A stretch of 64,000 bases of DNA, from assembly GCA_010356995.1 (NCBI GenBank), contig ML996692.1, forward strand, positions 693,933-757,932. The letters run 5' to 3'. Positions within the stretch are counted from its first letter, which is position 1. Each line of letters starts with the position of its first letter. This document shows, piece by piece, positions 45,569 to 48,212 of this stretch. The notes under the pieces are model-generated. The model ran no database searches. It had not been told where the DNA came from and worked only from the letters and a program-made list of their open reading frames with translations. The DNA is from Trichodelitschia bisporula (Eukaryota; Ascomycota; Dothideomycetes; Phaeotrichales; Phaeotrichaceae). Made by a program: the position numbers and the translations under genes.

Positions 45569-45911
45569 TGCAAGACTGCGTTTGGAGTTCAATACCCCTT
45601 GAAGCATTTATGGAGTATCAGGAGCATATGGAAAGGAGCATTCATGAAGGTCCATCTTGCACATAGTTTTCACTTGGCATATCTTGAAGTCGATTGAGAG
45701 GCTGTTGCGGCAGTCTGTTGCTGTCGTCACTCAGGACCCTCCCATATTACTACGGGCTGAGCCGAGACTCCGGCCTTGGCACCTTAAACCCTGGATCCGA
45801 TGACAAAAGGTCGAAAGGCTTCAACCTGCCATTGACCAATTCGCGCCCCCCACCCACATATGCTGTAACAGAATCCTTTTCCATATCTTCTCTCCCTTCC
45901 CTAAACCTGTA
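45569..45911. other. Spacer, MIA40 promoter
   Basis: A 343-bp spacer between co-oriented genes. The pyrimidine-rich stretch just before the MIA40 start (45875-45905) is a typical fungal leader. Nothing else is seen. Confidence 0.6.
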
Positions 45912-46891
45912 ATGATACCTCTACTTTCGCGCCCGGTCCTCCGCGCCGGGACCGCCACCAGCTCGCCCTGGACGCACTCTGCGCGCCGCCTCCTCAGCAC
46001 CGCACCCACAAAAAGTCGCGGGACGTGGAAAGGCACCGCGCTACGCTGGGGCCTCGCCGGTGCTGCAGTCTACTACTATAACACGAGCGATCTCTTCGCA
46101 GAGCAGCCTAGGCGTGCGTAGCCCTGCTTAACTACGAACTCAACTCCAGCTAACCATGCGCAGACGTCTCCATTCCCGCACCGTCACGAGTCGAACCCCT
46201 GCCTGAGCCGTCGCTTCCCACTGTCGAGGACCTAGTGTCGCAAAGACGGGCGCAGCATATCAACGAGGCTGCTGCGGCGGCGAGCGAGGGCGGAGTGGAA
46301 CCTGGATCGCCTGAGGCGCTGCAGCAGGAGGCTGACAGCCAGGGTGCGTTCAATCCCGAGACCGGCGAGATCAACTGGGACTGTCCTTGCCTGGGAGGTA
46401 TGGCGAGCGGGCCGTGTGGGGAGGAGTTCAAGGCGGCATTCAGCTGCTTTGTGTACAGCAAGGAGGAGCCAAAGGGAGTGGAATGCATAGACAAGTTCAA
46501 GTAAGTCGTATTGTACGATTTAGGTGGAATAACTACTGACTTGGGCAGGGGCATGCAGGATTGCTTCAGGAAGTATCCCGAGGTTTACGGGGCTGAGCTG
46601 GAAGAGGATGATGACTACGAGGGCTCGCCGCCGGCTGATGCAGACCAGACGGAGAAGAAACAAGCTTCGAGCGAACCAAAGAGCTCATCTGCCTCCGAGG
46701 CTTCAGAAGCAAAGCCTAGCGAGGCCCGAGAACGCGCGGAGAAAGTGGTGGACAGCAAACCCTCCACTGACCCGGCCAAATACAAGAAGCAGGAGCGGGC
46801 GAAGGTGGCAACCGAGCAGGTCAATGCGGAGCATGAGCTCGAGAGTGAAAGCGATGCGGTTGTGCCGAATGCGTGGCATGATGCAAAGTAA
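45912..46891 (+). CDS. MIA40: Mitochondrial intermembrane-space import receptor / oxidoreductase Mia40
   Basis: Oxidoreductase that traps cysteine-rich precursors in the intermembrane space by passing disulfides to them, working with Erv1. Exons are 45912-46113, 46164-46500 and 46549-46891, giving 293 codons. The N-terminus ([13 protein letters not shown] ... [15 protein letters not shown]) is a presequence. It is followed by a single membrane segment ([15 protein letters not shown], about 43-57), as in yeast and other fungi. The catalytic CPC is at 141-143 and the twin CX9C pairs are C152/C162 and C175/C185, all present. The C-terminal hundred residues are acidic and Glu/Ser/Lys-rich. The second intron falls inside KFKGMQDC between the two CX9C segments. 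The next gene, also plus, encodes another mitochondrial membrane protein. Confidence 0.96.
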
Positions 46892-47565: not shown

Positions 47566-48212
47566 ATGGCATCCTACGCTGACATCGCATCAAAGGGCCC
47601 TCAGCAGTCTGCCGAGGAAGTAAGTTTTGCCTTCACAGTACCCCCACCTCAAGCACTGACATGAGCCAGGCGTAAGCGAACCCGACCACAGTCATATCCC
47701 CCACTAACCTCTCTAGCCGTGCTCCCGCCCTCCCGCAAGTCGAGCGCACGGAAGATTCGCCTATCTCGCTCGTCGACGTTGACACTCCGCACGTATCCTC
47801 CGTGCCTTCGACGTTCTCTTCGCAGGACATCCAAACAACGACGCAAGCGGACCGGCTCGAGCGCGAGGCAGCTGCCGCACAACGCGAGCGTGACTCCTAC
47901 GACGCGGCCAAGGCGAAGGCTAAGAGCAAGAAGGACAAGGCGAGCCAGCGCATGCGGACTGGTGCTGAAAACCCAATCGTGCTGGGCAACGCCGTGCTTG
48001 TCGGTCTGCTTGGTACGGCTCTGGGAGTTGGCGCCTATCGTAAGTGGACGGCGGGTCAGTTGTCGTGGAAGGTTGCGGGGGCCTGGGCTGGCGTTGTTGG
48101 CTTGTTCGCGGCAGGAGATTACTACGTTAGCCAGTAGGTTTTGTCAGTGCATTGGGAGACGCGCGGCTAATTGGTCAGGTTCCTGTTCAGGAAGTACCCG
48201 CAGAACAAGTGA
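47566..48212 (+). CDS. OM14-like mitochondrial outer-membrane protein
   Basis: Small protein resembling fungal proteins with an OM14 C-terminal domain. Yeast Om14 is an abundant outer-membrane protein that helps dock ribosomes. My model has four exons: 47566-47619, a 2-nt exon at 47670-47671, 47717-48133 and 48179-48212, giving 168 codons. The product starts MASYADIASKGPQQSAEEAR, matching the MSYADxAxKGPxQSxEE opening I remember from relatives. A conserved ISLVDVDTPHVSSVPS segment, a charged coiled stretch (ADRLEREAAAAQRERDSYDA ... KSKKDKASQRM), and two hydrophobic segments (NAVLVGLLGTALGVGAY; VAGAWAGVVGLFAAGDYYV) follow. It ends FLFRKYPQNK. Without the 2-nt exon the first exon is out of frame with the rest. 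Confidence 0.78.
47670..47671 (+). other. Proposed 2-nt microexon (GC) of the OM14-like gene
   Basis: The dinucleotide GC sits between an acceptor (CTGACATGAGCCAG, intron 47620-47669, 50 nt) and a donor (GTAAGC, intron 47672-47716, 45 nt, branch site CACTAAC). Both flanking introns look complete. GC supplies two bases of an alanine codon (GC+C), which brings exon 1 into frame with exon 3 and gives SAEE-A-RAPALPQ. A single large intron (47620-47716) would leave exon 3 in a wrong frame, and the other acceptors I tried give stops or the wrong phase. Confidence 0.65.

Follow-up and report, generated by a model that had tools for sequence, protein, structure and literature searches.

In the CYP621A P450 genes of Fusarium, a one-nucleotide exon was described in 2026 from 20 genes and 18 RNA reads, and the authors call it the first known from a fungal gene; the same report gives exons of 2-5 bp as known in Arabidopsis, Drosophila and humans (PMC12940212). 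One-nucleotide exons are also described for the plant genes APC11 and VPS55, where they are reported to have been shown with reporter constructs and reads (PMC4674806, PMC8831610). Adjacent short introns in fungi are represented by the stwintrons of the Pezizomycotina, defined in these reports by an internal intron that interrupts a signal of the external intron and so forces an inside-out order of removal (PMC5639578, PMC6616335). Here, we describe an OM14-like gene of Trichodelitschia bisporula that probably carries a two-nucleotide exon, GC, between two ordinary U2-type short introns, a reading to which we assign a probability of about 0.85. The gene lies in a 64,000-nucleotide stretch of a 25.65-Mb, 30-contig assembly, hereafter the window, which was analyzed together with 100 kb on each side (264 kb).

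Like the CYP621A exon as reported, the candidate exon is an ultra-short, frame-required exon between two introns of a filamentous ascomycete, and the Fusarium exon is likewise said to have been overlooked by annotation (PMC12940212). The two differ in length (2 nt versus 1 nt) and in the gene concerned. The Trichoderma Xlr2 microexon, another short exon of a filamentous fungus, is described as regulated in its inclusion (PMC11121469), and the Fusarium exon is backed by orthologues and reads (PMC12940212), whereas the OM14-like exon is predicted from the sequence. The exons of APC11 and VPS55 are, by their descriptions, also shorter than a codon and needed for the frame, but occur in plants, and that of Arabidopsis APC11 lies within a 422-nt interval (PMC4674806, PMC8831610). 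With the stwintrons, as characterized, the locus shares adjacent short introns, a fungal host and, as proposed here, consecutive intron-definition reactions; it differs in that both OM14-like introns are intact and leave two coding bases between them (PMC5639578, PMC6616335). A search of open-licence papers by wording found no paper that speaks of a two-nucleotide exon.

The gene is encoded on the plus strand. Exon 1 (47566..47619) consists of 18 codons from the ATG in an open frame, encodes MASYADIASKGPQQSAEE and ends in phase 0 with GAGGAA. Intron 1 (47620..47669, 50 nt) runs from GTAAGT through CACTGAC (CTGAC at 47656) to AGCCAG, and intron 2 (47672..47716, 45 nt) from GTAAGC through CACTAAC (CTAAC at 47704) to CTCTAG; the candidate exon GC between them (47670..47671) would supply bases 1 and 2 of an Ala codon. 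Exon 3 (47717..48133) reads C CGT GCT...AGC CA and gives CCGTGCTCCC from 47717. The initial annotation had given the same coordinates for exon 1, both introns, GC and the start of exon 3, all of which match the sequence, and had called SAEEARAPALPQ the protein stretch expected when GC is included. Its account of the 3' part of the gene has to be revised. It had ended the gene at the TAG at 48135-48137, with a protein of 158 residues, and overlooked a third intron (48134..48178, 45 nt; GTAGGT...GGCTAAT...CAG; 18.6 bits) that leads on to a last exon (48179..48212), which encodes the end of ...SQFLFRKYPQNK and a stop at 48212; once this intron is spliced out, the protein has 168 residues.

Coding potential supports one frame on each side of the candidate exon. 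A hexamer coding model trained on 51 long ORFs of the 264 kb scored exon 1 at 7.4 in frame, against -5.4 and -11.5 in the other frames, and exon 3 (scored over 47718-48137) at 43.8, against -79.2 and -86.9. These two frames are incompatible unless bases are added between the exons.

Splice signals were scored with a model built from 38 introns of the same 264 kb, which were required to end in YAG, carry a CTRAY branch motif, lie between coding flanks and be no longer than 90 nt; none of the OM14-like gene's own introns is in this training set. A larger set of 105 introns was dropped in favor of the filtered 38 since some of its members were false, such as one lying antisense to a lipase-like gene. 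The 38 reference introns are 42-84 nt long, with a median score of 21.3 bits. Introns of the T. bisporula assembly are short and, in our judgement, ascomycete-like. At 19.4 and 19.2 bits, each at the 16th percentile of the reference set, introns 1 and 2 are ordinary for this genome but not among its strongest, and the donor, branch site and acceptor that had been claimed for each are present. The base before the donor of intron 2 is C, where G is usual. When all one- and two-intron models leading from the ATG to the exon 3 frame were enumerated (introns of 38-130 nt, GT-AG or GC-AG), 180 kept the frame, and only the model with the two-nucleotide exon had both introns above 19 bits; its weaker intron scores 19.2 bits, versus 12.5 for the runner-up. 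That GC is needed for the frame, as first proposed, is borne out by its being part of the only well-scoring model.

The alternative that survives best, although we consider it unlikely, is a single 97-nt intron (47620-47716) combined with an error of sequencing or assembly, or with a genuine frameshift of recent date, close to where exon 3 begins. With frame ignored, the whole stretch read as one intron scores 21.7 bits, more than either short intron and at the 63rd percentile of the 38; exon 3 also opens with a C-rich stretch, in which errors of length would arise easily. This explanation, however, leaves the internal CTGAC-CAG-GC-GTAAGC to chance. To estimate the chance level, the interior of the 97-nt stretch was shuffled while its donor and final 20 nt stayed unchanged; a success was an acceptor and a donor inside the stretch, spaced 0-14 nt, that kept the right frame and gave two introns of at least 19.0 bits each. 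Such a pair arose in 15 of 100,000 shuffled interiors; when the interior was instead drawn at random from the genome, 14 of up to 100,000 draws gave one (draws containing N were skipped and not counted). The spacing was exactly 2 nt in 4 and 9 of these cases, respectively. A length of 97 nt would also exceed what is observed, the maximum in a strictly chosen set of 26 introns being 78 nt where up to 110 was allowed, and a second nearby gene, the lipase-like gene discussed below, seems to use the same two-nucleotide solution.

We give far less credence to one intron that keeps the frame through a weak alternative site, for example 47607-47716 (...GPQHRAPALPQ) or 47624-47691 (...EEVIISPTNLSSRAPALPQ). 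Both products are open and in frame, but the introns score 12.5 and 7.0 bits with donors at 0.3 and -3.0, and the GTAAGT donor, at 9.5, would sit unused beside them. Decay of the gene into a pseudogene, with a genuine frameshift, would account for the clash of the exon 1 and exon 3 frames under a single intron but appears slightly more remote still: exon 3 has a strong, stop-free coding frame, and intron 3 extends the match to the Pfam profile OM14_C to position 67 of 70. Least credible is a stwintron, in which an internal intron would interrupt the donor or acceptor of the external one. Two short introns do stand almost back to back in an ascomycete-like genome and had been likened to nested twin introns, but a donor or acceptor is interrupted in only 4 of the 174 nested models that keep the frame, the best of these scores 6.2 bits against 19.2 for the two-nucleotide model (12.5 for the best nested model of any kind, a split branch site not being counted separately), and the defining split signal is absent because both introns are complete. 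As for their origin, the alignment of introns 1 and 2 is no better than that of shuffles (2836 of 5000 reach it); the introns are dissimilar, and an origin by duplication is therefore unsupported.

Under the two-nucleotide exon reading, each short intron would be recognized by intron definition, that is, by pairing of its own two ends. One of the two, in either order, would be removed first, which would free the neighboring site so that the other could be spliced, and the mature mRNA would read GAG GAA GCC CGT and encode the 168-residue OM14-like protein. It had been proposed that intron 1 must go first, yet each intron leaves the signals of the other intact, so that either may do so; because no splice signal is split and both introns are complete, the order of removal is not forced. 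Simultaneous occupation of the two inner sites looks sterically unlikely. Since these sites lie 2 nt apart and are probably not bound together, removal is likely to be sequential. This exon and the second candidate discussed below would offer a compact natural test of whether the order of use is fixed when adjacent splice sites can hardly be bound at once.

All four mis-spliced mRNA forms that were checked stop early. Skipping of GC (47619 joined to 47717) gives a stop after 39 residues, retention of intron 1 after 32, retention of intron 2 after 19, and retention of both introns after 32. Because skipping GC or keeping either intron leads to an early stop, only the two-step splice product would be productive. 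What the analysis establishes directly is the sequence, its frames, the splice-signal scores, the chance level and the early stops; use of the GC exon by the spliceosome, its constitutive inclusion, the order of removal and the decay of faulty products are what we infer.

A second gene, lipase-like, seems to need a two-nucleotide exon as well, in this case GG. It lies on the minus strand at C6:617752-617596, ~124 kb upstream of the OM14-like gene and ~76 kb left of the window start, and its reading frame breaks at the catalytic motif. A model with two very short exons, GCACAGCATG of 10 nt and GG of 2 nt, and three introns of 46, 50 and 49 nt (18.5, 19.3 and 19.8 bits) yields SVNIIAHSMGGLDSRYM and restores AHSMGG. 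By intron scores alone, this model is fifth of 283 in-frame models; the four above it (19.8, 19.3, 19.0 and 18.6 versus 18.5) include a single in-frame 157-nt intron. Among the 14 best of the 283, AHSMGG appears in the model with the 2-nt and 10-nt exons only. In Pfam, that model matches DUF676 at 32.2 bits (cut-off 20.3) and PGAP1 at 30.8 bits (cut-off 24.3), whereas in the three of the four higher-scoring models that were scanned DUF676 was unlisted in two and reached 16.4 bits in the third. The model also matches 34 solved sequences, and in the 3 lipase alignments inspected among them the motif is free of gaps. In yet another gene, located ~77 kb to the left of the window, a candidate exon of 10 nt was dropped by eye; it is not needed because one frame stays open through the site.

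Another very short exon is predicted within the window, in a CCHC zinc-finger gene on the minus strand (11414-11290) that we take to be GIS2-like. The gene has introns of 53 and 60 nt (21.6 and 21.9 bits), and its 12-nt exon GCAAGCAGCCTG (11361-11350, minus strand) completes a CCHC zinc knuckle; the joined piece matches zf-CCHC at 44 bits in two stretches. A 4-nt exon considered for this gene was rejected, as it used the wrong acceptor and the exon is 12 nt long.

Both strands of the 264 kb contain 157 intron-like stretches of at least 19 bits. At this threshold there are 5 tandem pairs spaced 0-6 nt apart, at 3 loci, namely the OM14-like, lipase-like and GIS2-like genes. Shuffling the 264 kb 8 times gave 0 such pairs in every version, although the shuffled versions were also poorer in intron-like stretches (41-60 each). 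When the threshold was relaxed to 17 bits, there were 6 pairs with a spacing of 0-6 nt in the real sequence, and 3 of the 8 shuffles had one each. When the 264 kb were screened for tandem introns spaced 0-30 nt with coding sequence on either side, 2 loci passed, with 3 pairs in all, and the OM14-like pair clearly ranked first at 22.5, ahead of 10.1 and 4.2 at the other locus; the lipase-like and GIS2-like pairs fail the coding-frame filter of this screen. A further 60 kb, from contig C1, was screened for tandem pairs with the same 0-30 nt spacing at 17 bits or more and yielded 0.

Very short exons thus seem to recur in the T. bisporula genome, with a length of 2 nt in two candidate cases. The lipase-like gene, with its candidate inside a catalytic motif, offers the best support for a recurrence of 2-nt exons. 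With two candidates in 264 kb, exons shorter than a codon may be commoner in short-intron fungi than has been assumed. The broader idea, that T. bisporula has a recurrent class of two-nucleotide exons rather than a freak and that inclusion efficiency could set OM14-like output because the mis-spliced forms that were checked stop early, is one we hold to be doubtful; its recurrence part draws on one case outside the window in 200 kb of flanks and none in the further 60 kb. Gene finders and read mappers, as the cited reports describe, readily overlook exons shorter than a codon (PMC12940212, PMC8831610), and the genes that carry them are therefore misannotated or taken for pseudogenes.

The protein was called OM14-like in the initial annotation. 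It matches OM14_C (PF17304) at 15.1 bits before and 18.6 bits after the last intron is added, over profile positions 4-67 of 70 in the latter case, but the match is weak and remains below the cut-off of 26.1 bits. Hydrophobic C-terminal segments are present: hydropathy over 19 residues peaks at up to 1.98 within residues 102-126 and at 1.26 within 134-156. We therefore use OM14-like, in the sense of a mitochondrial outer-membrane-type protein, as a fair label and not as a proven assignment. The PDB gave no meaningful match to the protein (best E 0.47), and neither viral contigs, scanned with a 55-residue C-terminal piece, nor bacterial and archaeal genomes yielded a relative, as expected for a fungal gene. 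Adjoining the OM14-like gene, at ~45910-46891 of the window, is a CHCH-domain gene (Pfam PF06747) with an ordinary intron at 46501-46548, and we take its product to resemble the import factor Mia40.
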